Below, in pieces: positions 26,538 through 62,331 of a stretch of DNA of 64,000 bases. The notes under the pieces are model-generated. The model worked only from the letters and a program-made list of their open reading frames with translations. It searched no databases and was not told the DNA's origin. How positions within the stretch are numbered: the first letter of the stretch is position 1; every line of letters begins with the position of its first letter. The stretch is from NCBI RefSeq assembly GCF_964355755.1, contig NC_092675.1, positions 27,010,412 to 27,074,411 on the forward strand. The letters run 5' to 3'. The translations under genes and the position numbers were made by a program. This stretch comes from Antedon mediterranea (taxonomy: Eukaryota > Echinodermata > Crinoidea > Comatulida > Antedonidae).

Positions 26538-29500
26538 TTATTTATTACGTTGAAGCCTATCATAAGTAGTATCTTCTGGTGACGTATTTATCGATGTGTC
26601 CACGTAAGAGTACATGTCGTCATTTTGTGGTGACGTATCTATGTCCAGCTTTCCATATTCATTGCCGAAGTCATTATTCTGGGCTTCTTCATTGACCGCA
26701 CTGTAAATCTCACCATCGGGTTTTTCGTCAGTGTTTGTACCTGTTGTCGACTGCATGTTGGTAGAATTGGCATAGTAGGCTTCTGCTTTGTTTTCATATG
26801 GTATGTTTTCGTTGTCATTCCCTACCCTGTATGACTGCATGTCGGCAGCATTTATACTATCGTAAAATTCACCACCATTCTTAATTGAAAGAAATTCTGT
26901 GTTTCCATACGTTACGTCAGCATCTGTTTCTGTATCCGGTACCATGTCCGAAGCATTTAACGAATCGTAGGCTTCGCCGGAATCTTTGTGTTTCTTCTTA
27001 TTTGGTACGGCATACAAATTTGGCGGTACGGCATACACATTTGACGCCACGTCGTTTTGGTTTGCGGGTGGTGACATGGCTGCGTTCTCCGTACACTCGC
27101 CGGAATGTGTGTCAATAAGTACGCCATTAGAATATGAAACTCGGCCCCCTATTGAATAGAAGAGAACAAAACGTATACAATACTTCAAACTTGAAGGAAA
27201 CAATTTTAATAGATCTGGTATTAGACTAAGACTCCCTAAAATCAATGTATGTAGAACACGGAAGTCCTTTGTTGCAAATAGCATTAATATGTACAATTGT
27301 AACGTTCGTCGTAAATATTTGTTGTATTTTTTAAATTTAAATTTTAACAGTATTTTACAGAGCCTTTGGCGCTTTTAATAGTTTTTAAACAGTATTTTAA
27401 CATTTTAATAGTATTTTAACATTGCCATATGCAATTTTATATATTTTTGCTTTGTTGTTTTATTGTCTTAACTATGCCAAGCAAAACAAATTTCCGTTTT
27501 AAAGTGGACCAATAAAATGTCTTAAATCTTGAACAAATTATACAGATGGCGATCACATAGGTGGATTTAAACGAGAAGCCGAAATGTCTCCGGTTCTCAA
27601 CCAAGAAGAAAGGGATTGTTTGGGTGACATTCATAAATCCGCCGCTGGGGATTTTTTTTTTAAAGTTAATTGTTCTTGAATCTTTGAGATTTTTGTACTC
27701 GTAATTAGTTTGATAAAAGAATCAAAAAATGAAACCGAACACATTATTTAACCGCGTTTTAAAGAGGCACGTCAATTTAAAGTAACTTTTCTGATGGTTT
27801 CATAAGTGTACATGCGGCGATAGATTTTACCGTATCCTGTGTAGGCCCTACCAAAATGTACGTACCTTTGGCATAATTGCTATTTGAAGTATTTCGCTTT
27901 TTTTTTTTCCGTCGAATTAGAAATAAAGCAATGATTATTACCAGGATTATAACAACCAACGGTACACAAATAATAACCAATAAATCATCGCTAGCCTGTT
28001 TATTTCCGGAGGTAAAATTTGAATTTGGTGAAGACATATTCGTTGATGAAATCGTTTTGTCTGTGTTGATTGGGTGTGAATTTTCAGACGTCGACATTTC
28101 TGGTTGAGTATTGAACAAAGATGTTGTTGATACTGATCTGGGAGTCGATGTTGTCGGCACTTGGCATATTTTCGTTTTGTCTGTAAAAAGTTATAATTAT
28201 CTGAATTTTTAATTAAATTGATATAACAATATATAATTACAGAAAAATGGAGAGGTTGCTACTAATTAACAGTCTGAAGCCTAAATAAAAAACACAATTT
28301 TAAATTAAATTTAGATGTAATTACGAGTGGAATAATTTGTTATCAATTTTGCAGTAAGAAGGTGGACCTTTAAAATATCGCCGTTGCTAAAGATACGGTA
28401 CCGTATCCATGCTTTTAAAAACTAAAGATACGGTAAATATAGAGGGCGCTTCCGTTTGCTAAAAGTACGGTATAAAATTGCATTCCTAAAACTCGTACCT
28501 AAATATAAAACTCATTCCTAAATATAAAACTCGTTCCTAAATATTAAACTCCTTCCTAAATATTAAAAACCTAACCCTCTAAATAATCTCTCTTAAATTA
28601 AAAACTAAAAAAAAAAATAAAAAAAAGACGTCAAGAAGAGTATCGAACCCCCTACACCTTAAGCCAAAGCCTCATCACATGCCCACAAGGCTACACAGCC
28701 GGCTTACAGTAACCCAATGCAATAACCTATTTGATTAACATCCACATTACATAGCGCCCTCTATAATTACCGTACCTTTAGTTTTTAAAAGTATGGATAC
28801 GGTACCGTATCTTTAGACATAACGTTAAAATATATGTTCCTAATAATTCAGGAAAATGTAAATATTGAATATCAGCGGGTATGAGAGGTTATGAGACCAT
28901 ATTTTATTTGTACATCCTCCCATTAAGTAACAACTGTATGCTACTCTGGTCGTGAACATATGTCAGAAACGTTGCTTTTTCTCACCAGTAGATTCACAGA
29001 TAATGCTGTTTACCCTAACAGTTGTTGAGCATTCGATGATGTCACTAGTTACGGTATTCGATAATCCATATCTATCATGCACATTGATTATTTTACATCC
29101 CATGTTCTGCACATGGACATAAAATCGATTTTTATTCCCCACACTAAGAACATGTAAAACATTTTCTGTTAATTGATTGTATTCCTCAAGGCTATTTATG
29201 ACAGTTATGTTCCCGCCAACCAATTCACATTTCCGTTGAGCATCATCACACGATCTAGGTTTATTGTCCACTTTTATATACTTATAGCAGTTGGGGTGGC
29301 TGTATACATTGTCATCTACCAACAAAAAGTGGAAAATGTAATGACAATCACAAAATTAAAAAACCTATGCAAAACAAATGTCATTGTTTATTTTGATAAT
29401 GTTATGAAAAACTAAATCAATACATATATAACGTATTTTTTCATTATGTATAGGCTAATGCTATTAACACAGTATTGTAGGCCTGCATACCTGCACCATG

Positions 29501-30435
29501 CGTTTCTCCTTTCGGGTCTCTGTATTTCCATTCTCCATCTTTAGAGTATATCAGGTAGCAATTATTCACACCTGAACAATCAAAACCACTATAACAAAAC
29601 CAAACATACGTAACGTAACATTGAATAAGTGATGCATTTAAATTTAAACCTTGGTACTACAAGTAACGATTAATAGCTATTCGATTATCTTAATTTATAC
29701 AATATATACATATCAACGCATTTTATTTGACAGAACATTAAACTGCATAACTTCTGATCTACAAGTGAATTAGGCGAATACGGTGTATTAACGTAATTGA
29801 ATAAGCGTTAATATTTTCAAATGTTATATTTTTAGCGCAAATTTATAGAATGTTAAATGTATGGAATGCAATTGCCCATAAAACACATTCATTTCTAAAA
29901 CTGTTGTTGTGTTCTTATTTTTTATTTTATTATTTCTTTCCTCCTATTCCTCCTCTATATTCAATAGACAACTCCTTTTTTAGTTGTGTTTGATTTCGAA
30001 ATGTCGTATTGATACGGTACTTGTATGTATTTACTTTTTCCTCCATGAGTGTAGGCCTACTTACATTTCCTAACAATTGTATAAATATAATAAAAATAGT
30101 ACAATAATAACATCAAAAAATTTGAAATTGATGGTTCAGTTGAATCCGAAAACGATCACACTTATAGAACAACAGTTTTGAATTGTTTCTGATGTTGTTC
30201 TAAGGTTTGTTTCCCTAACCTAACACCTAGATATGACTCCTAGACTGCAAACTATAACACAGTGTTGCTCAGTACTTAGGCCTACATTTCTTCACTGATT
30301 CCGCTCTATTCGTGACAATGGCCTACATTATGTTAATACTTACTTAGGACATCTAGTTCCGGATATTCCCAATGTTAACAAGCATATTATTATTACCCCC
30401 GAGACACATTTCGGCCATTGTATAAACCTGTGCAT
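26538..30435 (-). CDS. CTLD receptor A, long tyrosine-rich tail
   Basis: Five phase-consistent exons (30344-30435, 29491-29588, 28986-29315, 27866-28180, 26538-27148) give 481 aa. Order: signal peptide (MHRFIQWPKC start, hydrophobic core VIIICLLTLG); a short exon with DCSGVNNCY and GEWKY; a CTLD exon with NCYKYIKV, DAQRKCELVGGNITVINS, a CKIINV block and IICESTG, keeping the Cys spacing of the C-type lectin fold but without EPN/QPD or WND calcium motifs; a Ser/Thr-rich stalk; a TM segment at about 240-262 followed by RRKKKKR; and a tail of about 203 aa. Tail tyrosines include NVYAVPP, NLYAVPN, EAYDSL, VTYGNT, EFYDSI, PYENK, AYYANS, EIYSAV, NEYGKL, MYSYV and TYDRL. The type I membrane topology is inferred. 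I know no named orthologue. Signalling through SH2-domain proteins is an inference from the motifs. Confidence 0.82.
28387..28816. mobile_element. Foldback element Z with tRNA-like core
   Basis: The left arm (CTAAAGATACGGTACCGTAT, then GAGGGCGCT at 28442) is mirrored by the right arm (AGCGCCCTC at 28753, ATACGGTACCGTATCTTTAG at the end). Between them, on the minus strand, is a tRNA-like stretch with GGGTTCGATACTC at about 28640. It lies in intron 3 of receptor A and I see no counterpart in B, C or D. Confidence 0.7.
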
Positions 30436-33400: not shown

Positions 33401-33598
33401 TATTTACATATCAAAATAACATCATTGTTTTTATGATTTGGATTGATCTTAATTATTATATACTGTATCTTAAAAATTAGATGAAACTGATCAATCTCAT
33501 AAATAAATTAAGCAAGTAATTTATGGAATATCTTCTTTTGAAGTAAAATATTTGAACATGTTTAAAAGAGTACAGTCAGTTACTATGTTACAAGTTTA
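30436..33598. other. Intergenic between receptors A and B (duplicated at 44.6-47.0 kb)
   Basis: No gene. Most of it recurs between C and D, for example the short CATGCTACAACATAGT tandem (31895-31945 and 45430-45475), and GGGATATTCCCTACAACTAT at about 32111 and 45630. A tRNA-like T-arm remnant lies at 31350-31380. A homopolymer of about 13 G is at 32674. Confidence 0.65.
33100..33190. repeat. CCGA-microsatellite element
   Basis: A short dispersed repeat of the form ATACATTGGCTGG, then (CCGA)n, then CATAGTGAGCTATAGAGTCG. It has counterparts at about 39465-39570, 46495-46570 and 52600-52680. All four share the sequence on both sides of the microsatellite, so this is a repeat family and not just a simple repeat. 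Confidence 0.75.
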
Positions 33599-36500
33599 TT
33601 ATTTATTACGTTGAAGCCGATCATACGTAGAATCTTCTGGTGACGTGTTTATCGATGTGTCCACGTAAGAGTACATGCCGTCATTTTGTGGTGAAGTATC
33701 TATGTCCAGCTTTCCATATTCATTGCCGGAGTCATTATTCTGAGCTTCTTCATTGACCGCACTGTAAATGTCACCATCGGGTTTTTCGTCAGTGTTTGTA
33801 TCTGTTGTCGACTGCATGTTGGTAGAATTAGCGTAATAAGCTTCTGTTGTTGTGTTTTCATATGTTTTGATCTCGTTATTATGCTTTTCCTTTCCCGAGT
33901 CCATTTCGGCAGCATTTATGCAATCGTACATCTCACCGCCAGTCTGCTGTTCGTCTGTGTTCGCATACGTTACGTCACCATTATTATCTGTTGCTTTATC
34001 CGGTGGCATGTCCGAAGCAGTTAACGAATCGTAAGCTTCGCTAGAATCTTGATCCTTCCGTTTCTTTTTATTTGGTACGGCATAGAGGGCCATTGCCACA
34101 TTGTTTAGATTTGCTGGTGAGGACGTGGTTTCTTCCATGTCATGTTGGGTATGTTCTGTGTCTTTAAAAAGAGCAGCGTTCATTGGTGTTTCTGGTGGGG
34201 ACGCTATCTCGTCTGAGAGTGTGGGGATAAGTACTCCATCACCATATGAAAAACCTGCTAAAATAAACAACAAACATAAATAAAGGATATGATTGAAAAA
34301 CTTTAAAAAGCACGGTTGCTGTTTATCTAGGTTTCTGGCGATGGCAAAGAAGGGACATATTCCAGGAAATATATCGGTAGAAAATTGTAACAATTTATCT
34401 TTAAAAAACTTAGAACATAAAATATTAATAGACATAAAATAGCATAAAATGAAAAATAAAGGATATCAGACCTAACCATACTAGAAGAGAAAGTTACACC
34501 TTTCTAACATTACTAACAAAATGTTACCCTGTGTATCAAACTTCACGCACCTTTATGTACCATCTGTCGTTTTTTCTTTTTCCGTCGAATGAGAAAGAAA
34601 GCAATGATTACAATCAAGATTATAACCACGACTAATGGCACACAAATAGCAACCACTAAATTAGTACTTGATTGTTCAGATGCATTTGGTTGAGATATTA
34701 TGTTATTCGTTGATGAATCTGTATAGCCGCCTGTCGATGTTACTGATGACGTTTCCAGTAATTCTGACACGGAGGTTATTGCTGTGGCCGGTAGTGGGCA
34801 TATTTCAGGAGATATATCTGTAGAAATTTCAAATATATTATATTTTCTCAGATGAAACTTTGAATTTAATTGCAAATGTATTAAAGATTATATATGAAGA
34901 TTATTTAAATCAGACTTTGAATAGGTTATTTTGTAGTTTTCATAAACACTTTCACTTTCGTAGAAAAAAAACGGAAAAAAATAATGTTTTCACTTGTAAA
35001 ATAACATAATAAATGGTTAAATTCAACAAATAAATAATTGGTTGGAAGCCAATTTGAGTATTTCTTGCTTTGAAGAAAGTTTTCCAGGTAAATTTTTTTC
35101 AGATCCAATTTTTGCTCAAAGTGGATAACTATTATGTTATATTAAAATGGAGTATACAAACAAAAAACGTTAAAAAATTATTTTTTCATCTTTAAGAATA
35201 GCAGTTAAATAAAATTATGATCTAATGATATTAATAATGCTAAATCAAACAAAACAGGAATTATATCACAGCTTCTATGTGATGCAATTCAATTAGGCCT
35301 ACTAGATTCCATTTGTAAAAATAATTTATAAACGAAAGATCAAAGTATTATATCAATTATAGACCAAGCTATATATACATTTCCACTGGACAACCGTCCG
35401 GTTTTAGAAGATGAAAAACACACAAATTACTTAATGGTTAATAGCCAAAAGTAGATAGAAGAGAATCGACAATCCATTATTGTTTTTTTGATTATAATAA
35501 TAATAACTTTATTTGGATTAACGCTTTTACAACGCGGCACAAACCAAATGATAGTACATCCTAAATATAAAAATTAAAACGTTATAAAACAATACAATCA
35601 AAATAAACAAGAAAAATATAATATATTGAACATTTACAGTAAATAACGTAAAAGCTATGTCTTTTTAATATAACTTTTACAGAAATATAAAAATATATCA
35701 TACAGAAGATTAAACTTCGGGTAATTATTAAAGTAGTTAGAGTTGCCAAGAATTAAATTGAAAACTAAATCACCATAAATAAAAAAAAAGAGACCAATAA
35801 TTAAACAAAACATTATGAGACCAAGGCACTTTCGAGATTAATAACTCTATTAAAACTATTAAACTAAACTGGCTCTGATAGCATTCAGACATTTACACAT
35901 AAACACGAAGTGAATTAGATCTTCGGATCCTTTATTATACATAATGGACATGTGCTATCATTGTCCTGTTGCCATTCTGCAACTTTTCTATTGAGATGTA
36001 ATGTATTTGAGAGGCTTGAATTTCAAACTTTATTATTTTATTATAAATACTGATTTTCTGCAGGCGTATTTGATTTCTATACGTCAACAATATTTCAAAT
36101 AATACTTAAAAAAAATAATAATTTAATGCATAATAGATATAGTTTCTGACTTGTTTTACTCTTTTTTTGTACTGGACATTACCATCGGCATTTAATGAAT
36201 ACATCAAAACACACATTTTACAATGTGATCTTCAATTTGATAAAAGTACTGACGGAACGGTTGTCACAATATAATAATTTACAATTAAATTTTGATTGTC
36301 TGCAATCAATTTTTATCACAGACAATCAAAATTTAATAGAAAATTCCTATATTGTTGCCATACTGTGTTATTAGTGTTATTTATTTAATAATAGAAATAA
36401 ATCCTATACCAATACCATAAACTCATAGTGCCAGGTTTGTTAATTATTTTAAGAGGATTTTTTTCATTGCCTCGAATAGACTACACGGGAGGCTTGTACA

Positions 36501-38914
36501 AATGATATGCCATTGGTTATGTATTATGTGTACTCAGTGTATTTAAATATTGTTAATACTCACCAGTAGATTCACATATAATGGTGTTTACGTCATCAGT
36601 TGCTGAACAGTCCATGTTTTCACTGTCTTTGGTATTTGAAGAGAAAGCACCATCATTCACATCGATTATTGCGCATCCCTTGTTAAGATTTCTCTTGGGT
36701 AGGCGTAGACCTATTCCTGATTCTACATGGACATTAAACTTACTACTAGACGGGGCACTAAGAACATGTAAAACTTGATCTGTTAATTGTTTGTATTCCT
36801 CGTCGCTATTTATGACAGTAATGTTCCCGCCAATCATTTCACATTCACGTTGAGCATCATCACATGATCTTTGTTTATTGTCCACTTTTATAAATTTATA
36901 GCAGTTGGGGTGGCTGTATACGGATTCGCCTGCAAAGGATAAATCAATTGTACTGATGATGACATAGTGAATGTAAGAACATAATTAGTATTCAATTTCA
37001 CGAGTATAATTTATTACTTACATGACTCGTTCTCAATCTGTCATTACTGTTTTTTTTTTTTTACCTTTTTGTCTGTTGGACGAAAATATTGAATTGAATT
37101 GAAACACTTTTTGAACATTTGTTTGATTTAGATATTCAAATAATATTTATATTTATTATGGTATCAAATAATTTGATGTCTGATCACAATCACTATTTAC
37201 TGGTCATTACTTTTGTAAACATTTGTCTATTATTAAATTATACAAATAAATATTTCACTAATAACACTGTCTCAAACATTGTTGTTTTTAAAATTAATTA
37301 GTGTTCCATGACCTTCTCATCAAAATTAATGTCTCTCATTGTTGTGCTATGTCAACATAATGTCAATGACGGCGAAATGTCCCCAATAATGGGGATAGCT
37401 ATGCAAACAAGTAATTATAATTGATATATGAAACAATATTTTGATATTAGAATAACATTAATACTAAAATTATACATTTATTATACTTTTTTAAATTATT
37501 ATTACTTAATATACTATTACTAGTAATAAAAGTATTTTGTGTTAGACGTTCCTCACGGTTTTAATAATTATTAAGATCAATGATGTAACAATATGTTAAA
37601 ATAATAATTATTATTAATTTTTTTTAAACATATATATTTATATAAAAAAAGCTACACTGTAATCCAAATACAAACAATTGTTTAACCTGTATCATACGTT
37701 GTTTCTTCTGGATCTTGGTATTTCCACTCTCCATTTTCAGGGTATATAAGGTAGCACTTATCCACACCTGAACAATTAAAACCACTATAACACAAAAGTA
37801 TAACAGATAATAATTCAAAAAAACTAAACGGATGACAGCGCCGTGAAACGAAACATGTGTTGACGAGGTCGACCTCGTTAGTGTTGACGGGATGCGCCTC
37901 AATAATATGTTCTCATTTTGCTTATCTATTCTCTATACAGCATTATGCACTAATTAAATTTTATTTTACTTTATTTAACAGAGTTACGCAACATAAAAAA
38001 CAACGATAATTAATAATTAAAAATAAAAGATTTATAATGTAGCACAATTAAAAAGTGTCAAAGAAACGTATTTCCTCCATTGAATCATGTCCCAACACTA
38101 TTTTGTAGTGTTAAAACTAGTTGTGTTTTATTTATGTGGCTTACGGTTTTTAATTTTCTACTGCTATAGTATTTCATTAAATCTTCAAATACGTATTACG
38201 AGGGTTACTTTCATACATATTAATAATACATACAGGTACAGTAGTATAGTAATTTTTTAATAGTAGTTTTTTAATTATATCGGCTACTATCTGTTATAGG
38301 CCTATTTTGATTAAATTAAAGCTGTCAAATAATGGTGATTGACTATTGACCTTAAGAGTCAGTGATTCAGTTGAATGAATTTATTTCAAATTCAGGGGCC
38401 AATTATCGTTAACTTTGGTGGGATAGTAGGTCACCAAATTACCGGGTAACTAAAAACAAACGTCTGAAAGCGGGCCCATAGAGGGCGTAAAATGTGTAAA
38501 AATATTATAATAATACGATTAGCATTTAGAATTTAATCAATCAGATTATGTAGAAGAGGAGGAGAGTATGTATTAGGTGATGCTGGAATAACACTAGAAT
38601 AACAAAATATTGTTCATCGTTTGTTTTTATACCGTCCGTGCTGTGAATACAACATACTATATATGAATACACATTATGCTTAGGCCTACTGATAGATCTA
38701 CCACTGGTGACAGTAAATTCCGCCGTTCTATTAAATTTGAAGACATCACTGTATGCGATATTAAACAATTCGATAGTTAGTGTTTTTATCATACTTATGT
38801 AAGGAACAATGAATACATTACTTACTCAGGACATTGTGCAGCCTCTGCTACTTTCCATTTTAACATGCATATTACTACTGAAACACATTTTAGCCATTGT
38901 ATAACCCTATGCAT
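33599..38914 (-). CDS. CTLD receptor B, long tyrosine-rich tail
   Basis: Five phase-consistent exons (38826-38914, 37687-37784, 36564-36929, 34551-34817, 33599-34254) give 491 aa. The start ATG (38914) follows CCACC. Signal peptide MHRVIQWLK with hydrophobic VSVVICML, ending AEAAQCP. Exon 2 has NCSGVDKCY and GEWKY. The CTLD exon has NCYKFIKV, DAQRECEMIGGNITVINS, KGCAIIDV, ENMDC and IICESTG. A Ser/Thr-rich stalk is followed by a TM segment at about 238-261 and RRKKKKR. The tail (218 aa) carries LYAVP, EAYDSL, VTYANT, EMYDCI, KTYENT, AYYANS, DIYSAV, NEYGKL, MYSYV and STYDRL; the last fits the ITIM pattern S-x-Y-x-x-L. It pairs with D as a subfamily by signal peptide and stalk. All splice sites are GT/AG and no lesion is seen. 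An immune-type receptor role is inferred. Confidence 0.84.
34320..34400 (-). pseudogene. Relic stalk exon in receptor B, intron 4
   Basis: On the minus strand the words GATATATTTCCTGGAATATG and CCCTTCTTTGCC match the start of the real stalk exon (GATATATCTCCTGAAATATG, CCCACTACCGGCC at 34816), but there is no AG just before it and no TM part. It looks like a duplicated stalk exon now lying in the intron before the tail exon. D has the same relic at 47715-47775. Confidence 0.6.
35925..36065 (-). pseudogene. Non-LTR retrotransposon C-terminal relic (copy in receptor B intron)
   Basis: It is the counterpart of 49170-49499, which is better preserved. The minus-strand translation includes the remains of the zinc-knuckle-like end of a LINE reverse-transcriptase ORF. 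It lies between the CTLD and TM exons of B and was inserted before the B/D duplication. Confidence 0.6.
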
Positions 38915-41089: not shown

Positions 41090-44000
41090 TTATGAAATCA
41101 AACCATACACTTCATTTTTAACGACAGTATCATGGTACATTTCACTCTGGTCAATTGATGGAACAGCAGCACCATGCTTATATGAACCAGTCTGGAGTTT
41201 ATCTTGTTTAATAGAGTTACCGTCAACCTTAGAATCTACAAAGATAAAATTAACAAATTAAAATTGACCACCATAGTTGCTCATCTGTATAGTTTTGTAA
41301 CCAAACCAACATGTATAGCCAATCCGACCACATTTATGCGAGTAGTGTACATATCTTTATGGTCAATTGTATCTAGATTGCTCATCATATCCATATTCGG
41401 TAATGCAGCATCCATGTGTTTCACATGTATTGCCTAGTGTTTCTGGTGGTGACGCTATCTTGTCTGGGTGTGTGGGTATGAATGCTCCATTGCCATATGA
41501 AAATAAATTAAAAAACAATGATACAAATCATATGACGTTGCTGATGCTTATCTGGGATTATGTTGATTGCAATTGGCATTATTCCAGAATATATATCGGA
41601 AGAAAACATATAAATATTTTTTTTTTATTTAATCATTTGGTCAAAAACAGTTAGAAAATATATGAGAACAAGCTTACAAGCAATGTACTAAAAATGGGAA
41701 TTTGAAAAGCTATCAACCTTCATAAAAAGCAGATCAAGGATTACCATTCCAATACAGTTAGGCCAATTAAAAAATGCATACACTAATAACACGTTTATTT
41801 GTTATTTTGTAAACTGTTAAAGGTGACGTGAAGTTAACCAGCGAAAAACAACAACAATTAAACAGGTTTATTTCTTGAGCAAAATATTATGTTATTTTCC
41901 ATAACACTTGATAGTTTGTTAATTCTCCTCAGTAGCGTAGAATTTACCGTCAATAATTGTAGTCTTAGTTGCAAAGAAATTTACACTTAAAATACGGTAG
42001 AAAATTGTAATAATTAAATAAGTATTAAGCTTTTAAAAAAATTGAAACTTAGCACATAAATTATAAATAGACAAAGCATAAAATGAAAGAAAGATAAGAA
42101 AACATTATTAATACAATATCAGACCTAACCATTCAATAAGAGAAAGTTACGCCTCTTTAGTTAATATTACTAACAAATGTTACCATGTGTATCAAACTTT
42201 ACGCACCTTTTTGTATCATCTGTCGTTGTTTCTTTTTCCGTCGAATGAGAAAGAAAGCAATGATTACAATCAAGATTATAACCACGACTAACGGCACACA
42301 AATAGCAACGACTAAATTAGTACGTGATTGTTTAGATACATTTGGTTGAGATATTATGTTATTCGTTGATGAATCTGTATAGTCGCCTGTCGACGTTACT
42401 GATGACGCTTTCAACAAAGATGTCGTTGATACTGATCTGGGGGTCGTTGGTGACCCAACTGGGCATAGTCCAGGATGTATATCTGTAGAGTGGGAACAAT
42501 CCACATTATTTTATGATATCATAAACACTGCCCTTAAACAGATATGATCGTTTAAAATATCAATTTATACCGCCCCTCTGCACAGCCCATTTTGGGAACA
42601 TTGTCGAGCCAACGCATATAGACTGAGTTTAGTCTGGTGGTTTTTCTGTTTGTTTTTTGTCAATTATACTTTTATAGTGTCTGCTGTCGGTTTAATAATG
42701 ATTTAATTTGTCACAAAATGTCGGTAAATATCCATTTAGGCCATACACATTATTTTGTAGGTGGTTAAGTTGTCTACTTTCTTGAAGATTGTTTTTATAC
42801 TCACCAGTGGATTCACAGATAATGGTGTTTATCAAATTAGTTGTTGAGCAGTCCATGTTTTCACTGTTTACGTCATGCGAATTCAAAATTCCATCATACA
42901 CATCGATTATTGCGCATCCCTTCTTTAGCCTTTTCTTCAGGGTTAGTTCTGATTCCACATGGACATTAAACTTACTACCCGACCCGACACTAAGAACATC
43001 TAAAACGCTATCTGTTAATTGATCGTATTCCTCAACACTATTTATGAGAGTGATGTTTCCACCAAACCTTTCACATTCCTGTTGAGCATCAATACACGAT
43101 CTTTTCTTGCTCACTCTTATAAATTTATAGCAGTTGGGGTTATTGTATGCGGGTCCGTCATCTGCAAAAGATACATAAAGTATATATCGAATGTACAGTA
43201 TTACTAATGATTATCTTAAATACTGTGTAATATTTACTTTGTGAATATTTATTTGTGTTCACATTTAAGTCAATACACGATCTTTTTTATTACTCACTTT
43301 TATACATTTATAGTGGTTAAGGTTGTTATATACATCTCCACCTGCTCAAAAAACGTAACTGACTTAGAAGTTTCTGCATATTTGAATGACGTATATAATA
43401 TTTATTTATTTAACAACATCTTTATACATGATTACACAATCCGGTAAAATAAAACCTGTTTTGCATTGTGGTCCTGTCTTAAATAATAATAAATAATAAT
43501 AAATCAGGAAAAACACATTTTTAGTTTTGTTTAAAAAAAAATAAGATCGATATCTAGCTTTGAATGAAGCAATATTGTTGGGGAATATTTAATTTCAGTT
43601 GGTAGGTTATTTCATATTTTAGTGCCTGCAACTTTGAACTTTGAACTTGTTTTATTATTACATAACTATAATCCAAGAATAATTCAACTTAATAAGGCAT
43701 GCCTCATTTATTGAAATTGTTATATTATTTTATCCAATGAATATATCATCATTTCGCGGATATTAATTTTATGGTTTTGTTTATATTATCACTATTATTA
43801 TACTGCTATTTTGACCTAGTTGATTGTTTCTATTGTTTTTTATTTTTATCTTAACCAAGCAATGTGAAGAACATACTTGCATCCCTCGTTTCTCCATTTG
43901 GCTTCTTGTATTTCCATCTCCCATTCACAGGGTATATCAGATAGCAATTCTTACCCGAACACTCAAAACCACTAAAACAAACCAAACGTAACGTAACATT

Positions 44001-44591
44001 AAATGAGTGATACATTAGATTTAAACCTTAAACCAGCTATTGATTATTATGTGTACACATAATTATCAACGTACCAACGCATTTGTCAGAACAGTAATAC
44101 AATTATGTTCTAAACATTTTTTATATAGTTTTACTTCATTAATGCTTACATTTCCTAGTGTTTCGTTTATTTATTTGACCAGCATGAAATCAAAACAATA
44201 TACCGGGTATTAAAAAATAAATCAAAAACAAAACAACAAAGATATGAAATGCCGGGCAGGGGCAGCTTAAGCAAAATACAGTACATTGCAGTAACTTAAA
44301 TGAGTGAGCTACACCTCATATCAATTTCTAAACATTTGTCAATAAAATGTGTCTACAATTTCAAATTGCAATATAGTACTATACTGTATTTAGACCTACA
44401 TTTCTTTAAAAAAAGTTTCAGTTCTTATAAATATAAAGACTATTAGGCCTACTTCCGTGTACTTATATTTATGTTACTAATACTTACTCCGGACATGATC
44501 CAGTCCATGATATTTCCCATGTTAACATGCATATTATTATTACTGAGACACATTTCGGCCCGCATTTCGGCCATTGTATAAACCTGTGCAT
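41090..44591 (-). CDS. CTLD receptor C, predicted short tail
   Basis: Exons 44488-44591, 43877-43971, 42805-43161, 42207-42482 and a proposed last exon 41090-41235, all phase-compatible, give 325 aa. Signal peptide MHRFIQWPKCG with VIIICMLTW. Exon 2 has ECSGKNCY and GRWKY. The CTLD has NCYKFIRV, DAQQECERFGGNITLINS, KGCAIIDV, ENMDC and IICESTG. The stalk shares PTTPRSVSTTSL with A, then comes a TM segment followed by RRKKKQR. The last exon (acceptor TCTTTGTAG) encodes 48 residues with GSYKHG, EMYHDT and EVYGLI. It has no similarity to the long tails but joins the TM exon in phase 1 and is conserved at 56314-56459. A remnant of the old long-tail exon (about 41410-41512) has lost its acceptor. 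The use of the short tail is inferred; transcripts are needed. A further intermediate tail exon around 41300-41420 is possible. Confidence 0.7.
41410..41512 (-). pseudogene. Decayed long-tail exon start (gene C)
   Basis: On the minus strand the frame reads SYGNGAFIPTHPDKIASPPE, aligning with SYGDGVLIPTLSDEIASPPE at the start of the B tail exon. The TTTAGCAG acceptor present in B is missing here because of a deletion, and the similarity to the rest of the tail ends after about 25 residues. The same relic is at 56640-56710. Confidence 0.75.
43265..43365 (-). pseudogene. Partial duplicate of the CTLD exon start (gene C, intron 2)
   Basis: On the minus strand an AG acceptor is followed by GGAGATGTATATAACAACC, HYKCIKV and SNKKDR, matching the first 25 residues of the CTLD exons (YNNPNCYKFIRVSKKR). 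A frameshift and a stop follow at once. It lies between exon 2 and the intact CTLD exon of gene C. Confidence 0.7.
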
Positions 44592-46992: not shown

Positions 46993-49900
46993 TTATTTAT
47001 TACGTTGAAGCCGATCATACGTAGAATCTTCTGGTGACGTATTTATTGATGTGTCCACAAAAGAGTACATGCCGTCATTTTGTGGTGAAGTATCTATGTC
47101 CAGCTTTCCATATTCATTGCCGAAGTCATTATTATGAGCTTCTTCATTGGCCGCACTGTAAATGTCACCATCGGGTTTTTCGTCAGTGTTTGTATCTGTT
47201 GTCGACTGCATGTTGGTAGAATTAGCGTAATAAGCTTCTGTTGTTGTGTTTTCATATGTTTTGTTCTCGTTATTATGCTTTTCCTTGCCCGAGTTCAGTT
47301 CGGCAGCATTTATGCAATCATACATCTCACCACCAGTCTGTAGTTCGTCTGTGTTTACATACGTTACGTCACCATTATTATCTGTTGCTTTATCCGGTGG
47401 CATGTCCGAAGCAGTTAACGAATCGTAAGCTTCGCTAGAATCTTCATCCTTGTGTTTCTTTTTATTTGGTACGGCATAGAGGGCCATTGCCACATTGTTT
47501 GGATTTGCTGGTGAGGACGTGGCTGCTTCCATGTCATGTTGGGTATGTTCTGTGCCTTTGAAAAGAGCAGCGTTCATTGGTGTTTCTGGTGGTGACGTTA
47601 TCTCGTCTGAGTGTGTGGGGATAAGTACTCCATCACCATATGAAAAACCTGCTAAAATAAACAACAAACATAAATAAAGGATATGATTGAAAAACTTATA
47701 AAAGCACGGTTGCTGTTTATCTAGGTTTCTGGCGAAGGCAAAGAAGGGACATATTCCAGGAAATATATCGGTAGAAAATTGTAACAATTTATCTTTAAAA
47801 AACTTAGAACATAAAGTATTAATAGACATAAAATAGCATAAAATGAAAAATAAAGGATATCAGACCTAACCATATTAGAAGAGAAAGTTACACCTTTCTA
47901 ACATTACTAACAAAATGTTACCCTGTGTATCAAACTTTACGCACCTTTATGTACCATCTGTCGTTTTTTCTTTTTCCGTCGAATGAGAAAGAAAGCAATG
48001 ATTACAATCAAGATTATAACCACGACTAATGGCACACAAATAGCAACCACTAAATTAGTACTTGATTGTTCAGATGCATTTGGTTGAGATATTATGTTAT
48101 TCGTTGATGAATCTGTATAGCCGCCTGTCGACGTTACTGATGACGTTTCCAGTAATTCTGACACGGAGGTTATTGCTGTGGCCGGTAGTGGGCATATTTC
48201 AGGAGATATATCTGTAGAAATTTCAAATATATTATATTTTCTCAGATGAAACTTGGAATTTAATTGCAAATGTATTAAAGATTTATATATGAAGATTATT
48301 TAAATCAGACTTTGAATAGGTTATTTTATAGTTTTCATAAACACAAAATAAAAAAAAATATGTTTTCACTTATAAAATAACATAATAAATGGTTAAATTC
48401 AACAAATAAATCATTGGTTGGAAGCCAATTTGAGTATTTCTTGCTTTAAATAAAGCTTTCCAGGTAAATTTTTTTTCAGATCTATACAAACAAAAAACTT
48501 TAAACAATTATTTTTTCATCTTTAAGAATAGCAGTTCAATAAAATTATGATCTAATGATATTAATAATGCTAAATCAAACAAATTCAATTAGGCCTACTA
48601 GATTCCATTTGTAAAAATAATTTATAAACGAAAGATCAAAGTATTATATCAAGTATACACCAAGCTATATACATTTCCACTGGACAACCGCCCGGTTTTA
48701 GAACATGAAAAACACACAAAATACTTAATATTAATGGCCAAAAGTAGATAGAAGAGAATCGACAATTCATTATTGTTTTTTTTATTATAATAATGATAAT
48801 AATAACTTTATTTGGATTAACGCTTTTACAACGCGGCACAAACCAAATGATAGTGTATCCTAAATATACAAATTAAAACATTATCAAAAGTACAATATAA
48901 AACAATACAATCAAAATAAACAAGAAAAATATAATATATTGAACATTTACAGTAAATAACGTAAAAGCTATGTCTTTTTAATATAACTTTTACAGAAATA
49001 TAAAAATATATCATACAGAAGATTAAATTTCGGGTCATTATTAAAGTAGTTAGAGTTGCCAAGAATTAAATTGAAAACTAAATCACCATGAATAAAAAAA
49101 GAGACCAATAATTAAACAAAACATTATGAGACCAAGGCACTTTCGAGATTAATAACTCTATTAAAACTATTAAACTAAACTGGCTCTGATAGCATTCAGA
49201 CATTTACACATAAACACGAAGTGAATTAGATCTTCAGATCCTTTATTACATAATGGACATGTGCTATCATTGTCCTGTTGCCATTTTGCAACTTTTCTAT
49301 TGAGAGGTAATGTATTTTTGAGGACTTGAATTCCAAACTTTATTATTTTATTATAAATACTGATTTTCTGCAGGCGTATTTGATTTCTATACGTCAACAA
49401 TATTTCAAATAATACTTTAAAAAATAATAACTTAATGCATAATATATATAGTTTCTGACTTGTTTTACTCTTTTTTGTACTGGACATTACCATCGGCATT
49501 TAATGAATACATCAAAACACACATTTTACAATGTCATTTTGATAAAAGTACTGACGGAACGGTTGTCACACAATATTATAATAATTTAGTTTTACAATTA
49601 CATTTTGATTGTCTGCAATCAATTTTATCACAGACAATCAAAATTTAATCGAAAATTCTTATATTGTTGCCACACTGTATTATTACAGGGAAGAGTTAAA
49701 TTACAATTACCAATACCAGGTTTGTTAATTTTTTTGCAACATCATTGATTCGAATAGACTATACGGGTGGCTTGTGCAAATTAGATTTCATTAAATAGGT
49801 ATAGTGTACTCAATGTAGTAAAATGCTGTCTATACTCACCAGTAGATTCACAGATAATGGTGTTTATCTCACCAGTTGTTGTGCAGTTGGTGTTTTCGCT

Positions 49901-52040
49901 TTTTTTGGTATTATAATGTAAAGTTCCATCATGCACATTGATTATTGCGCATCCCTTGTTGATATTTCTTTTGAGTCGTTCTGATTCTACATGGACATTA
50001 AACGTACTAATAGAATAGCTACTAAGAACATTTAAAACTTGATCTGTCAATTGATCATATTCCTCAACGCTATTTATAACCGTGATATTCCCGCCAACCA
50101 TTTCACATTCACGTTGGGCATCAATACACGATCTAGGTTTTTTGTCCACTTTTATAAATTTATAGCAGTTGGGGTTGCTGTATACGGGTCCGCCTGCAAA
50201 TAAATCAATTGTACTGATGACGAAATAGTGAATGTAAGAAAATAATTAGTATTCAATTTCACGATTAGAATGTCTTTTATGACTTGTTCTCAATCAGTCA
50301 TTACTGTTTTTGTTTTTACTTTTAAATATAAGTGAATTGAAACACATTTTGTCTATAAAATTATATCAATTCATATTTTTACTAATAACACGTTGTCTCA
50401 CTCATCATGATTTTATTATAATTTAAATATGAAACAATAACATTAATACTATACTAATACATTTAATATACTATTACTAGTAGGCTAAATATATTTAATA
50501 ATTACAAAGATAAAAGTAGATAGTAGTTAGACGTTCCTCATTGTTTTAATAATTATTTAGATCAATGATGGAACAATTGTTTAAATATTAATTATAATAT
50601 TAATTTGATTAAACACATCTATATCTTATATATAAAAGTCAAACTTGAATCCAATAATGGTGACAATTGTTTAACCTCTATTAAACTTCGGCCCGCGTCG
50701 TCCCTTTTTGTATTTCCATTCTCCATCTTCAGGGTATATCAGGTAGCAATGTATTGGGTGAAATAACACTAGAATAACAAATATATTGTTCATCGCTTGT
50801 TTTTATACATTCCGTGCTGTGAATACAATACTATACAGATATTGACTGCTTAGAGGTTAAATATAAGATTTGACATCCCCGAGGGAATGATATTAAGTTC
50901 GAGGGAATAGGGCCTATATATTTCCCGAAGCGCCAGCTGAGGGAAATATATATTCCACGAGAACTTAATATCATTCCCGAGGGGATGTCAAATCTTATAT
51001 TTAACCGATATAAAAGGCAATATCTGTTATATTATATAGCCAAGAACAAGTCTGCTGGGTTGGGTGAAGCTAGACTAGGCCTAGGCCTACTATAGTATTT
51101 GTATTGTTGTATTTAAACAAGCCTGCCTAGAAAGACACCTTACCTTGCGAAGAATAATATACAGATAATTACTAATTAATGATTCCTTGGCAATAAAATA
51201 TTCACTTAGGCCTAGGTCGTTTAAATTAACAGAAGAATTTCCATCAATAAGCCTATTAAAAATAATAATAATTATAATCAGGTAGGCCGAATAAACAATT
51301 CGTCTTCTTCTCGATCTTCTTCGAGGAGCCGAATCACCGGATGTTCAGCGCGTACTAGTTACTAGGTTACTACCGTGAGTATTGACCAATCACAAACGGT
51401 GTTTCATCACATTTAGGGTGGACTTATAACAAATGAGGGCGCTATGTATGCATAGTTTAAATAGTTTAGAAGATTAATTTCTTCAAGCAACTTTCGTGGC
51501 GCAACGGTTGAAGCGTTGTCTTGCGATGGAGTGACAATTCCACCCGAGTTCAAGATCGAGTTGATGACTTTTGTTTATTTATCGGCAATGCGAGTGTTGG
51601 CACACGAAAATTACACAGTCAATATCATCGTACTCGAGAATCTATATGTTTAATGACAGGGGACACGATAATTACGCGAAAATTACACAGTCAATATCAT
51701 CGTTCTCGAGGATATATACGATTTACGATCCTCGCAGCGGTAGTCATGTGATGCAGTTTCAACCAATCACGTTAGCGTATTTACATAGGCTATGTAATAT
51801 AACATATTATTCATATATTTACTGATAGATCTACCACTGGTGAAAAATAACATAGTGAATTCCGCCGTAGTCTATATAAAGTTATCACTGTATGCGATAG
51901 TTTGGTTTTATCATACTTATGTAAGGAACATGAACAATGAATACTTACTTAGGACATGATTGTTCAGCCTCTGCCATTTTCCATTTTAACATGCATATTA
52001 CTACTGAAACACATATTAGCCATTGTATAACCCTAAGCAT
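46993..52040 (-). CDS. CTLD receptor D, long tail, probably disrupted at exon 2
   Basis: Exons: 51949-52040 (signal peptide MLRVIQWLICVSVVICML), truncated exon 2 at about 50676-50750, CTLD 49840-50193, stalk-TM 47945-48211, tail 46993-47648. The CTLD has NCYKFIKV, DAQRECEMVGGNITVINS, KGCAIINV and IICESTG. The tail keeps LYAVP, EAYDSL, EMYDCI, AYYANS, DIYSAA, NEYGKL, MYSFV and STYDRL; DIYSAV has become DIYSAA and the second Tyr of MYSYV is Phe. In exon 2 a deletion joins intron 1 sequence (as at 38565-38600 in B) directly to CATTGCTACCTGATATACC, removing the acceptor and the GFNCSGVDK part. The nearest AG upstream gives an early stop, and skipping exon 2 shifts the frame (phase 2 to phase 1). 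D is therefore probably a recent pseudogene unless another first exon is used. Confidence 0.72.
47715..47785 (-). pseudogene. Relic stalk exon in receptor D, intron 4
   Basis: The counterpart of the relic at 34320-34400. GATATATTTCCTGGAATATG is retained with a one-base difference nearby. It shows that the relic predates the B/D duplication. Confidence 0.55.
49170..49499 (-). pseudogene. Non-LTR retrotransposon ORF2 C-terminal relic
   Basis: The translated end contains STCPLCNKGSEDLIHFVFMC followed by AIRASL. This C-P-x-C...H...C cluster is typical of the very end of LINE reverse-transcriptase polyproteins. Upstream NRKVAKWQQDND fits the same region. Only about 100 residues survive. It is in intron 3 of D, with a counterpart in B at 35925-36065. 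Confidence 0.7.
50855..51006. mobile_element. Near-perfect foldback element W in receptor D intron 1
   Basis: GGTTAAATATAAGATTTGAC on the left mirrors GTCAAATCTTATATTTAACC on the right. Pairing continues inward through CATCCCCGAGGGAATGATAT, giving arms of about 45 bp around a centre of about 55 bp. It is absent from the corresponding intron of B. Confidence 0.85.
51490..51560 (+). mobile_element. tRNA-derived SINE-like segment
   Basis: A-box TGGCGCAACGG at about 51499 and B-box-like GAGTTCAAGATC at about 51546, at roughly tRNA spacing. The arms do not fold into a convincing functional tRNA, so it is read as a SINE head. It belongs to a block of about 1 kb (50840-51815) inserted in intron 1 of D relative to B. 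Confidence 0.5.
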
Positions 52041-53680: not shown

Positions 53681-53689
53681 TTATTTACG

Positions 53690-55940: not shown

Positions 55941-56313
55941 AAATCATTTATATTTATTAATTGGCATAAATATTTTTGACATTTTATTAAAATTTAAAAA
56001 AGCAATAGAATAAACTAATTTTTTAAAGAATTAAATTAAAAATACTTGTCTCGTTAGGTCCCTAAATACACATAAATAAAATCACAAGCAAAAGAAACAT
56101 CAATATCATACGTATTATGTGTATGTTAATGTTACATTGCTCTTTGCACTTAATTACAATGAAAATTGATATAAATTAGTATAATTAAATTTTATATAAA
56201 ATACTTAGGATAGGGCCTATTCAGGTAACGATTTTGTAGCTAACATGCCACTAATGCATTTTATGATGAAATTTAGGCTTAGGACATACAGATAGTTAAT
56301 ATTTGCAACATCT

Positions 56314-59300
56314 TTATGAAATCAAACCATACACTTCATTTTTAACGACAGTATCATGGTACAATTCACTCTGGTCAATTGATGGAATAGCAGCACCATG
56401 CTTATATGAACCAGTCTGGAGTTTATCTTGTTTAATAGAGTTACCGTCAACCTTAGAATCTACAAAGATAAAATTAACAAATTAAAATTGACCACCATAG
56501 TTGCTCATCTGTATAGTTTTGTAACCAAACCAACATGTGGCCAATCCGACCACATTTATGCGAGTAGTGAACATATCTTTATGGTCAATTGTATCTAGAT
56601 TTCTCATCATATGCATATTCGGTAATGCAGCATCCGTGTGTTTCACATGTATTGCCTAGTGTTTCTAGTCTGGGTGTGTGGGGATTAATGCTCCATTACC
56701 ATATGAAAATAAATTTAAAACAATGATACAAATCATAAGACGTTGCTGATGCTTATCTGGGATTATGTTGATTGCAAAGGGCATTATTCCAGAATATATA
56801 TCTGAAGAAAACATATAATTATTATTTATCTTTTTCATTTATTCATTTGGTCAAAAACAATTAGAAAATGTATGAGAACCAGATTTCAAGCAATCTATTA
56901 GAAATGGGAGTTTAAAACCTTAATTAAAAACAGATCAAAGATTAACATTCGAATACAGTTAGGCCAATTCAAAAATGCATACAATAATAACACGTTTATT
57001 TTTCGCGCCGCGGCTCTAGCCAGTTATGTCCCAGGAGGACACATTCATTAATAAGCTGTTTCATAGCGGTAGCTTTAGTATCTAAGACTGACAGTTTTGT
57101 GAATTTGGAAACTCGACTATAATTTATAGGTAGCTGCTGGACCCAAAAAACGTCTGGGAGAAGAGAGTCTATATGAAAGCCTTTGCTGATAATACAGTAT
57201 TATTGAGATGTAGACGGAAATCTGTAAAATATTGATCAATAAATAATAACTTCGTTTTTGCTGTCAACCAGGCCGGTATTATAATAAGTCACTGTCAAAT
57301 AATCATTCGATAATGGTCAAAACTTTATTTTGGCTCTGTCAACATAAAGGGAGGTATTTACAATGACTTTCTTTGACTTTCAATCTAGGCCAATGTTATA
57401 ATAATACGCCGTCAGATATTAAATCATTGAAACAGTCCTCGTAAATTTTTTGTTGGTTATCAGATGCCGTGGGGGGTCCAATCAATTATCGTCAGAAGGT
57501 GAACAATCAGTCTACAGCAGATTATTAGGAACGCCTGCTCCATTAATTAATCCAGAAAAAGGTTTGAACATTATCTATTTGTTTATTAGCCTTCTCCTAA
57601 CACAATTATATTTTCTTTAAAAAAAAAGGTTTTATAAGTGGTTTCAACATTTATGATAGTAATGTCACAGTTCTGTGTCTGGACGCAAGTTCATAGACCT
57701 ACTAGTTATATTATTCATATTAACTGATACTTACTCTTCATTTACCGTAAAGTTCAGTTTTAATGAAATATATAATATAAATTGGCTTCGTAACAATTAA
57801 TTAGTTTTGAAAAGGTTAGTTTTTTGGTGATAGGTGAAAATTACATGTAACTTCGTAAACAATTTATTTTTTGTGTATAAAGGCCCAATTACACTATGAC
57901 GATAACGACAGACGATAAATATATAGCATGCATTTTTTTTACATAAACCAAAAGAAATTAGAAAGGTTTTCGTTCTAAAAATAATGTTTTTCAAATTTCA
58001 ATCAAATGACGTCATGATAAATAAAAACAATAAAATCGCTGTATTGTCACGATATTATTGGTCTTACTAATCATGACGTCATTTGATTGGACGTGTGAAA
58101 ATATAATTTTCATCAAAGGAATTGTTTATATTTCTTTTGGTTTATGTATTAAAAATGCACATTTGTCTATTTATCGTCGATCGTTATTGTCCTAGTGTAT
58201 GGGCCTTATGCTGTAAATGTTCAATTAATTGATCATTCCGATTTTATTAGTTTGACTCTTGCACAGTTGCTGTCTAATCGTTGTTGTGTAATATCATTTC
58301 GAACCATATTAAAATCATAAAGAGATTCATATTCCTTAACATGTGGCTGTGCATGGAAGTCTAGTCTACACAAACTCGGCCCCGGGCCTGAAAGTGTTGG
58401 TGAATTCATAATTATACTTAATATTATATATATAAACACAACAGGCATAGAAATAAATTCCAAACCGCCCGGTGATACACTGAAAATTATTTAATTAATT
58501 TTTGAAACGATAAAGATGAGGAAATCTGGGAGTGTTGAAACATTTCAATATTCATTTAAAAAAGTACATTAATTATGGTATTGATCAGTGCCTATAGAGG
58601 CGTAAAAACCCTCGGTCAATATCATGTAAAATGCACTGTGGAAGGGTCATTATTAAGACTGCAAAATTGGGCTTATCAACAAATAAATACTTTCGTTCAA
58701 AATGTAAAATCAAGGCTGAAAAATTGGGCTTATCAACAACAAAATATGTTATTATTAGACGCGATAACATCAAGGATAATCAGTATAATTATTAATATAG
58801 CCACTGTTACTAGTTATTCTACATGCTAAAGTAAATAAAAATCCACTAGAAAACAAGCAAGTCTGAATGTTATGCTTATTAGCCATGTTATGTTTGTTAC
58901 TGTAGGCCTATGATTGTTTGCAATGTCCACATATTATTTCCGTGGGCATATCCATAGTGTATCACTCACAAAAAAGACGTGTGAGGTTCTTTCTTTAAAT
59001 TTTGATGAATGATTTGTGTTACACAAGAGTCAAATGCTCAAGATATTGGCTAACGCCATGGGACCCTTGGCTTATCAATGAATAATAAATATAGTACTAC
59101 TTTCGTTCAATTGAAATCGGAATCTGACCGTTTCATTAAATTGGGTGTGATTAGGCCTAAACATATAATAATTTATTAAAAAGGTACAATAAAAACAAAT
59201 GCATCAGAGGCGTAAAGAACCCACGGTCAATATCATGTAAAATGTATATGGTATAAGCACTGTGGAAGGGGTCATTATTATTAAACTGGAAAATTCGGCT

Positions 59301-60990
59301 TATCAACAAATAAATACTTTCGTTTAAAATGTAAAATAAGACTGCAAAATTGGGCTTATCAACAAATAAATACTTTCGTTCAAAATGTAAAATAAGACTG
59401 CACAATTGGGCTTATCAACAAATAAAATACTTTTTTTCAAAATGTAAAATTAAGACTGGAAAATTGGGCTTATAAACAAATAAATACTTTTTTTCAAAAT
59501 GTAAAATTAAGACTGGAAAATTGGGCTTATAAACAAATAAATACTTCCGTTCAAAATGTAAGAAAACATTTTTTAAATATAATCCTTAAGCTCTGTCTAT
59601 ACTATCAAACTAAATATGATGTGCCCATATTATATAGACATGACGATGTCATATCACTACGATAATCGGGCATATCACTACCATATTTGGGCACATCACA
59701 CTTTTTTTGTTAAACTAGTTGGGACAGTGTAGACACAGAACTATGTGATCGAAACATAAGTCGGAATTGGACTGACGCGATTGATTTAATTGGGTATTTT
59801 TATTAATGTAATGATTCATTAAAAACTATAATACCGATACGCGTTTGGTATTGATCAATGGTGCAAAAAACCCTGAGAAATAATGTTATAACGCGATTTG
59901 GTGATAGCTTAGCAATAATACAACCCATATACTATTATTATAAATACCTATTACAAATCCATTCATATAACTTTTCATCGCGAACCGAAAATGTATAAAT
60001 GTTATTCTACAGACAGTAATTATATATTCAAAAGCCATATTATTATTATTATCAATACCTAAATGCGATAGTAATAACCACATACATTATTCCCAATACA
60101 AATTTGTGCGTTTAATTCTACAGTAGAAAGAAACGACTGTGCTGACAGGCCAATGACATAAATCACAAGTAAAGTCCCAATTGTTCACTTGCGTTTTGAT
60201 TGGCCGACCTATTATATTAGATTAATGAAGACTGTTCTTACAACTGTCCAGTCAAAAAGTTACGCGGCGTTTTTTGTAAGAAATATTTCTTGTTTATTTT
60301 GTAAACTGTTAAAAGTGACGTGAAGTTGGCCAGCAAGAAACGTAACAACAACAATTAAACTGGTTTATTTCCATTGGAAATGTTTAGAATAATTAATTTT
60401 CCATAATACTTGATAGTTTGTTAACATTCTCTTAAGGCAGTAGCGTAGAAGGTACCGTCAATAATTGTTGTTTTAGTTGCAATGAAATTTGCACCACTTT
60501 GTCAGTAAATAATGATTTTGATCACAAACTTTTTTTTAAAGTTCCTTAACATAGAACATTCATAAATAATAGATAAAGCCTACAATATTAAAAATAATGG
60601 TAACAAACACAAACAATACGATAACCTACCTAACAATTTCATAAGAGAGAATTACACATTTTGAAAATATTTATACTAAAATAAATGTTATCCTATATGT
60701 TGCTATCAAACTTTACGCACCTCTATCTACCATCTGTCGCTTTTTCCTTTTCCGTCGAATTAGAAAGAAAGCAATGAGTACAATCAAAATTATAACAACC
60801 AACGGCACACAGATCGCAGCAACTAAGTTAGCACTTGACTTATGTTGTTCAGATGCATGTGGTGGTGATATGTTATTCGTTGATGAAATAGCATAGTCTG
60901 CAGACGTCGATGTTACCAGTGACGTTTTTGTTAATTCTGGTACGAGGGTCGTTGATTGTGACGGTACTGGGCATATATCAGGAGATGCAT
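56314..60990 (-). CDS. CTLD receptor E, partial: stalk-TM exon and short-tail exon
   Basis: Two exons are recognised: 60721-60990 (stalk and TM) and 56314-56459 (48-residue tail), both phase 1. The stalk exon starts DASPDICPVPSQSTTLVPEL, is Ser/Thr-rich, and is followed by AAICVPLVVIILIVLIAFFL and RRKRKKR with a GTGCGT donor, as in B-D. The tail has GSYKHG, ELYHDT and EVYGLI and differs from C at Met/Leu and Val/Ile positions. The intron between them is enlarged by the 3.3-kb insertion at 57003-60290. Upstream exons (CTLD, exon 2, signal peptide) are not found between 60991 and 64000. Intron 3 sequence similar to B (35.28-35.42 kb) is visible to about 61640 and then repeats take over, so those exons lie beyond the window or are lost. 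Confidence 0.65.
56640..56712 (-). pseudogene. Decayed long-tail exon start (gene E)
   Basis: The counterpart of 41410-41512. The frame SYGNGALIPTHPD is followed by a stop (TAG) made by a small deletion. The acceptor AG is absent, as in C, so the loss predates the C/E duplication. Confidence 0.7.
57881..58206. mobile_element. Foldback element Y
   Basis: It starts AGGCCCAATTACACTATGAC and ends CCTAGTGTATGGGCCT. The arms continue inward (ACGACAGACGATAAAT against ATTTATCGTCGATCGT; TTTTACATAAACCAAAAGAA against TTCTTTTGGTTTATGTA; ATGACGTCAT on both sides). It is about 326 bp of imperfect inverted repeat without an open frame. Confidence 0.8.
58640..59565. repeat. Interspersed 56-58-bp repeat
   Basis: ATTGGGCTTATCAACAAATA recurs at 59352, 59408, 59466 and 59523 (spacing 56-58 bp), with two more units at 58665-58740. 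Units carry TACTTTCGTTCAAAATGTAA. A longer parent phrase with GGTCAATATCATGTAAAATG occurs at about 58614 and 59223. Confidence 0.8.
59589..59742. mobile_element. MITE family X, copy 4
   Basis: Left end AGCTCTGTCTATACTATCAA, right end ACAGTGTAGACACAGAACT. The interior has CATATCACTACCATATTTGG and GGGCACATCACAC. It lies inside the insertion in receptor E. Confidence 0.8.
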
Positions 60991-61640: not shown

Positions 61641-62331
61641 GCTCCAAGCTGCCCATTGTATATGTTAATCGCAATTGATAGTCCTAGTTCAATTTCGGTG
61701 CATATCCTGTTTGCATATCACATGTTTTCAATTTATTTTTGGATAATTTTTATTATTTAGGCCTAAATAATGATTTTAATTTGTTATCGTCATAAAAGTA
61801 GTTCAAGGAAAATTATTAGTAAATATATATAATTTAATATAGGGGCCTAAATAATAAGTTTATGCTAAATGTATTACTCTGTCTTTAAATTGTTCGATTG
61901 TGTGGTTAACAAGTACGCGTACGAGTACGCTACTTGAAAGATATCTCTTAATTGTTGTTATTATTTGACAATATCTGGACTTTTATTTGGTGTTGAACTC
62001 ATAGTGATAAACAAGGAACTCATATAAAAGGAAAGTACACTTTTTATTACAGAACCCATTGTTAGATCCAAGTGATTTAGACCTTCAACGCCTAGGCCCA
62101 CGGATAGAAAAAAAGTTGTACCATACGATCTATACAGGGTTAGTTTGGCCCTTTTCATTGCTGGGACCTCAAACGATCGTACCGCGTCTTTTCTGCCTTC
62201 TAATCGGCCAATCAGTGCGAGGCGTCGTTGTGCTAGGCAACAGTACTTTCTATTGTCTTCTTTTGTCCATTGAAATCGTACAAATACCACTGCATAGCGA
62301 AATCGCTAATGCAACAATGCAACACATAGCA
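61641..62331. other. 5' flank of the element ORF
   Basis: AT-rich up to about 62050, then a more GC-balanced stretch. No CTLD exon of gene E is visible. It may contain the 5' UTR of the element that starts at 62332. Confidence 0.4.

Follow-up and report, generated by a model that had tools for sequence, protein, structure and literature searches.

A tandem cluster of predicted CTLD receptor genes with two tail types in the crinoid Antedon mediterranea

Gene content and extent of the cluster

The stretch analyzed here, called the window, comprises 64,000 nucleotides of Antedon mediterranea contig NC_092675.1 (positions 27010412-27074411) and carries part of a tandem cluster of genes for predicted type I receptors, in which a C-type lectin-like domain (CTLD) is joined through a transmembrane (TM) segment to one of two kinds of cytoplasmic tail. 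Flanks of 100 kb were added on each side, giving 264 kb in total; positions are counted from the first letter of the window and continue on the same scale past its end. Exons of the family (tblastn, E <= 1e-4) were confined to 26541-116248 and lay on the minus strand throughout, which confirmed the one-strand receptor cluster proposed in an initial annotation of the window; the limits drawn there, 26538 and 60990, were the end of the gene A tail and the start of the stalk/TM exon of gene E. The cluster extended past the window end with copies F-L, up to 116248, and consisted of about a dozen related receptor genes in a row, with 11 open CTLD exons (A-J and L). Copy K was a TM and tail fragment without a CTLD, the stalk of L had no TM segment after it, and the long tail of G was frameshifted. 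In tblastn, the tail exon of D matched that of B at E 3.5e-132, and CTLD exons matched one another at E 1e-39 to 2e-53; these values excluded chance likeness among the cluster genes. No Rfam family matched the window at the gathering score.

Genes A, B, and C (Table 1) each had five exons with GT-AG introns and phases 2-1-1-1, open from start to stop, in the order leader, Cys exon, CTLD, stalk plus TM, and tail; leaders were judged by eye and TM segments by hydropathy. The common exon plan of the initial annotation held for these three genes and not for D, in which exons 1 and 2 are out of frame, and as E had only its 3' part in the window, three of the five copies originally described were complete. 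The gene A protein was identical, letter for letter, to database protein P0002, P0003 corresponded to the C-terminal part of gene C, and the database model for gene D (P0001, 394 aa) started within the CTLD. Exon 2 of gene B had a weak-looking donor, GTTAAA. For gene D, an ATG upstream of 50748 opens the frame of exon 2, with a hydrophobic lead, and a new start at this exon is possible. The first three exons of gene E lay past the window end, at 70955-74731. Pfam matches of the stalk/TM exon to TMEM154, Orf78, Psg1, RIFIN, and similar families, centered on the TM helix with its basic residues, were set aside; TMEM154 alone reached its cut-off (35.2 against 30.3 bits in A, and a score equal to the cut-off in E). 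A second, partial copy of the CTLD exon start was present upstream of the gene C CTLD exon (43277-43342, minus strand).

Table 1. Positions of the receptor genes and mosaic features on the window scale
Feature	Position	Strand	Exons	Basis and remarks
Gene A, long tail, complete	26538..30435	-	30435-30344, 29588-29491, 29315-28986, 28180-27866, 27148-26538	GT-AG splice model, phases 2-1-1-1; 481 aa = P0002
Gene B, long tail, complete and open	33599..38914	-	38914-38826, 37784-37687, 36929-36564, 34817-34551, 34254-33599	Splice model, tblastn
Gene C, short tail, complete	41090..44591	-	44591-44488, 43971-43877, 43161-42805, 42482-42207, 41235-41090	Splice model
Gene D, long tail	46993..52040	-	52040-51949, 50768-50676, 50193-49840, 48211-47945, 47648-46993	Splice model; frame broken between exons 1 and 2
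Gene E, 3' part only in window	56314..60990	-	stalk/TM 60990-60721, short tail 56459-56314	P0004
Divergent block, B vs D (intron 1, Cys and CTLD exons, adjoining introns)	36417..38792	-		Sliding identity
Relic of long-tail exon start, gene C last intron	41437..41518	-		blastn to D 47667-47580, 81%
Relic of long-tail exon start, gene E	56664..56709	-		blastn to D 47646-47601, 87%

Predicted CTLD and the two tail types

The third exon is predicted to encode a CTLD fold on the basis of profile matches, structure models, and structural Z, in line with its original assignment. With the Pfam lectin-domain profile, the best CTLD scored 16.6 bits against a cut-off of 22.6, gene C gave no match, and 4 of 14 CTLDs matched at E up to 1; among the matches listed in a genome scan with the lectin profile, none lay in the cluster. 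CD93 and CD302 were among the seven best profile matches of the CTLD. Thrombomodulin headed the Foldseek list for the CTLD, and CLEC9A shared the top structural Z with the CTLD model. A full-length structure prediction of P0002 (predicted local distance difference test score, pLDDT, 38.7) was not used. Six cysteines were present in all 11 cluster CTLDs; in a 14-row CTLD alignment, the fifth cysteine was absent in P0008 and P0012. Ca-dependent sugar-binding C-type lectins have EPN or QPD together with WND. None of the 11 cluster CTLDs had EPN or QPD, and one (H) had WND, further from the cysteine than is usual in lectins; the motif combination of Ca-dependent sugar binding was absent from the cluster CTLDs.

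The long tyrosine tail was found in A, B, D, F, G, and H (12-17 tyrosines in A, B, D, F, and H), and a short tail in C, E, I, J, and the fragment K, with I and K assigned partly by eye. The tail of C and E was a different exon of 48 amino acids with 3 tyrosines; among the five genes of the window, the Tyr-rich tail first attributed to every copy was found in A, B, and D and not in C or E. Tandem-duplicated tyrosine-bearing modules occurred in the long tail of F (75965-76861) and the short tail of J (96874-97212). Long tails were also found in P0006 and P0008 of Anneissia, and short-type tails in J, P0007, and, by eye, Anneissia P0005. Because both kinds occur in Anneissia, both look older than the split between Antedon and Anneissia. 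Tyrosine was the best conserved residue of the aligned long tails, being identical in 25 of 36 cells versus 164 of 612 for other residues (D compared with the more distant P0006, P0008, and P0009).

A run such as YGKL-x11-YSFV-x12-YDRL recurred close to the C-terminus of the long tails. The consensus of the immunoreceptor tyrosine-based activation motif (ITAM) is Yxx[LI] x6-12 Yxx[LI]. A relaxed pattern, Yxx[LIV]x6-13Yxx[LIV], which was chosen after the tails had been inspected, was found in all seven long tails, in triple form in six of them, and in neither form in the four short tails tested; it exceeded shuffles in six of the seven long tails (p 0.0002-0.015). Acidic-YxxL/I sites were above shuffles in A, B, D, P0006, and P0009 (p 0.0005-0.013). 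Matches to the inhibitory counterpart (ITIM) numbered zero in C and E, one in B, D, P0007, P0009, and P0010, two in P0008, and three in P0005; none was in excess of shuffles, and an ITIM reading of the tails was rejected. The switch motif (ITSM) had one match, in P0010 (p 0.04).

The best protein matches were uncharacterized A. mediterranea proteins with identity up to 100%, and no sequence of the 264 kb encoded P0007 at full identity. Protein searches gave 15 proteins, all from Antedon or Anneissia by name. The profile search, in which scoring was limited to the 7997 candidates with the most words in common, gave no relative outside crinoids. Nor did a search with the P0002 tail by itself, along the lines of the tail query suggested at the outset, which found only P0002 and P0001; the two results do not prove that the family is missing elsewhere. 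In literature searches, mostly outside subscription journals, no title or abstract opening described such a crinoid receptor family. Within these searches, the initial statement that no named family fits was supported. P0005 of Anneissia japonica is a predicted protein with two consecutive CTLD-TM-tail units, which may be either a real fusion or a merger of gene models.

Mosaic structure of B/D and C/E

Identity between genes B and D was 88-97% in exon 1 together with the 0.6 kb preceding it and fell to 33-52% in most of intron 1. The Cys and CTLD exons with their adjoining introns gave about 61-92%; past the CTLD block and up through the tail, identity was mostly 92-100%, dropping to 84% beside gaps. 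The synonymous divergence (dS) between them was 0.33 in the CTLD, 0.015 in the TM exon, and 0.076 in the tail, and this contrast gave a Fisher p of 3e-6 on rounded synonymous counts. The high synonymous divergence indicated that the CTLD had a different history, and not merely selection on the protein. Intron 3 of D also contained a retroelement-like open reading frame (ORF) piece with a CPLC..H..C pattern (49170-49499, named by eye), and gene B has the surrounding stretch as well, in its corresponding intron near 36.1 kb.

The last intron of gene C contained a relic of the start of a long-tail exon, which matched the long-tail exon of D at its beginning and in the adjoining acceptor region. 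Directly after the relic, C 41436-41303 matched the intron before the short tail of J (97346-97222) at 78% in blastn, and C 41248-41120 matched the short-tail exon of J (97224-97081) at 78%, which placed the junction at about 41436. Alignment showed the same junction in gene E with a further small deletion, and E 56658-56527 matched J 97346-97222 at 80% (blastn). The splice acceptor AG of the long-tail relic was absent in both genes, and the TM exon of both was of the type found in long-tail genes. The presence of the relic together with this TM exon suggested that C and E are former long-tail genes that gained a short-tail 3' end; the sequence shows one such tail replacement, common to both. 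Between C and E, dS was 0 in the tail and 0.48 in the TM exon; the tails were open and 96% identical, with zero synonymous changes over 47 codons. At the level of sequence, the B/D and C/E comparisons showed that ectodomain and signaling exons have different histories. In the CTLD tree, in which 10 of 15 inner branches were weak, a single clade of the eight long-tailed rows was rejected (approximately unbiased test, p-AU 0.0004). The order of events at the C/E junction is directly testable in other crinoids.

Downstream of the gene E tail, a tandem array with an 82-bp unit in 27.5 copies was present at 53700-55947, and a related stretch lay downstream of the gene C tail at 40569-40714. The array and its relative beside gene C are a possible recombination substrate.

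Interpretation as a paired-receptor locus

Paired receptors are marked by related ectodomains on different tails within one cluster and by opposite signaling outcomes on immune cells; the first of these marks was found here. We consider it an evenly balanced proposition that the genes form a tandemly duplicated type I receptor family, found only in crinoids by the searches made, that works like paired receptors. In such a system, the CTLD, having no EPN or QPD, would bind its ligand without calcium, and the Ser/Thr stalk, one TM helix, and basic stop-transfer would lead to either kind of tyrosine tail. Clustering by ligand would allow a Src-type kinase to phosphorylate the long tail, whose spaced YxxL/YxxV/YxxL array would recruit a tandem-SH2 (Syk-type) kinase and whose YxN and YxxP sites would recruit adaptors, following the hemITAM and ITAM logic in the available parts of PMC3819593 and PMC9287148. 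The long tail would then activate, and the short tail, without the array, would signal otherwise, by damping, endocytosis, or as a decoy. With a single kind of ectodomain carried by both tails, the family would amount to a paired-receptor system, probably of coelomocytes; the immune role and the direction in which either tail signals are inferred. More tentatively, and with somewhat less than even confidence, we propose that crinoids independently evolved a paired-receptor locus in which the ectodomain block diverges, the flanks are homogenized, and recombination swaps ITAM-type activating tails, borne by the receptors themselves, with short ones and has left a base-level fossil of one exchange.

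Several results weighed against these proposals. Foldseek gave no match below E 0.001 for the CTLD models, and pLDDT was only 45-50 in three of the five. The B and D CTLDs were neighbors in the tree (support 74/89), and given their pairing, homogenized flanks are no worse an explanation of the mosaic than an imported CTLD. Tail type was mildly clustered on the CTLD tree, where the long tail needed 4 changes; shuffling gave a mean of 6.1, and as few as 4 in 36 of 500 shuffles. No positive selection was seen along the CTLD in nine copies, G and H being excluded (ratio of nonsynonymous to synonymous change, pN/pS, 0.20-1.23). The strict ITAM, with L/I at +3 and x6-12, occurred in one of seven long tails (P0006) and in none from the window, the relaxed pattern was chosen with the tails in view, and in P0008 it was at chance (p 0.13). 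Acidic-YxxL/I sites were not above shuffles in the long tail of P0008 (p 0.32) and were above them in the short tail of P0010 (p 0.02), and because of the latter these sites alone do not separate the tail types. YxN was in excess in no single tail, YxxP exceeded shuffles in P0008 (p 0.005) and P0015, and the sequence of the short tail bears no mark of inhibition.

To our knowledge, paired receptors with exchangeable tails are known mainly from vertebrates. CD302 and the CD93/thrombomodulin group have a type I single-CTLD topology, with N-terminal CTLD, TM, and C-terminal tail as in the cluster receptors; they have few gene copies and are not known to carry ITAM-like tails with many tyrosines, whereas the receptors described here form a cluster in which tails of two types occur. 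LAT/Gab scaffolds share with the long tails many tyrosines in a disordered-looking tail, including YxN and YxxP sites; they are adaptors and, unlike the CTLD-bearing cluster proteins, are not known to have an extracellular domain for ligand binding. The LAT/Gab likeness suggested initially was half supported, by the spaced YxxL/I/V pairs and not by YxN. NK-complex lectins (Ly49, NKR-P1, CLEC-2, and Dectin-1) are likewise clustered CTLD receptors with YxxL signaling motifs, but they are type II, with an N-terminal tail and hemITAM or ITIM, in the available part of PMC3819593, whereas A, B, and C, with leaders judged by eye, are not type II and have the order leader-CTLD-TM-tail, with long multi-tyrosine tails in the long-tail copies; the NK-complex design first given as an example was therefore not supported. 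As in the cluster, Siglec-11/16, CEACAM, and CD300A/C are neighboring genes with common modules and differing tails, according to the available parts of PMC5701461, PMC2832619, and PMC12447643; unlike it, they are vertebrate Ig-superfamily receptors, and the likeness of Siglec-11/16 lies in the ectodomain, whereas that of B and D lies in the tails, with ectodomains that differ. Crinoids are sister to all other living echinoderms in the available part of PMC11336682. If the proposal is true, paired-receptor logic evolved again in crinoids from other parts, namely a type I CTLD below the Pfam cut-off.

Ordinary birth-and-death evolution, a rather unlikely account, would make the mosaics by-products of unequal crossing-over or gene conversion and the C/E tail an accidental fusion, a swap without a role. 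Conversion-like tracts, the still grouped B and D CTLDs, the duplicated tail modules of F and J, the frameshifted tail of G, the out-of-frame exon 2 of D, the lack of a TM segment in L, and the many tandem repeats are all as it would have them; the similar short tails on J, P0007, and, by eye, P0005 speak against it, and so do the open C/E tails without synonymous change, although these would follow from recent copying no less than from constraint. We judged it slightly less probable again that the genes encode engulfment or scavenger receptors comparable in function to Draper/MEGF10 or Dectin-1, in which the CTLDs would bind ligands from microbes or dead cells and either tail type would drive uptake through tyrosine motifs, with no opposing pair. 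Multi-tyrosine tails with YxxL, YxxP, and YxN sites would suit such receptors, as would YxxL/I sites in short tails, above shuffles in P0010, but uptake alone does not explain two tail families on related ectodomains and a replaced tail. Self-recognition or gamete recognition instead of defense is improbable: a multicopy family found only in crinoids, a B/D ectodomain more divergent than its flanks, and a tunicate CTLD receptor linked to allorecognition (in the available part of PMC9505182) favor it, and the lack of any sign of positive selection in the CTLD speaks against it.

Elsewhere in the window, two adjoining arrays of tandem repeats, one of 55 bp x 20.5 and the other of 96 bp x 17.9, occupied 13523-16401, where the long ORFs look like repeat artifacts. 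On the plus strand at 62011-64000, neighboring ORFs with coiled-coil and SGNH-hydrolase-like stretches, named by eye, perhaps belong to a mobile element.
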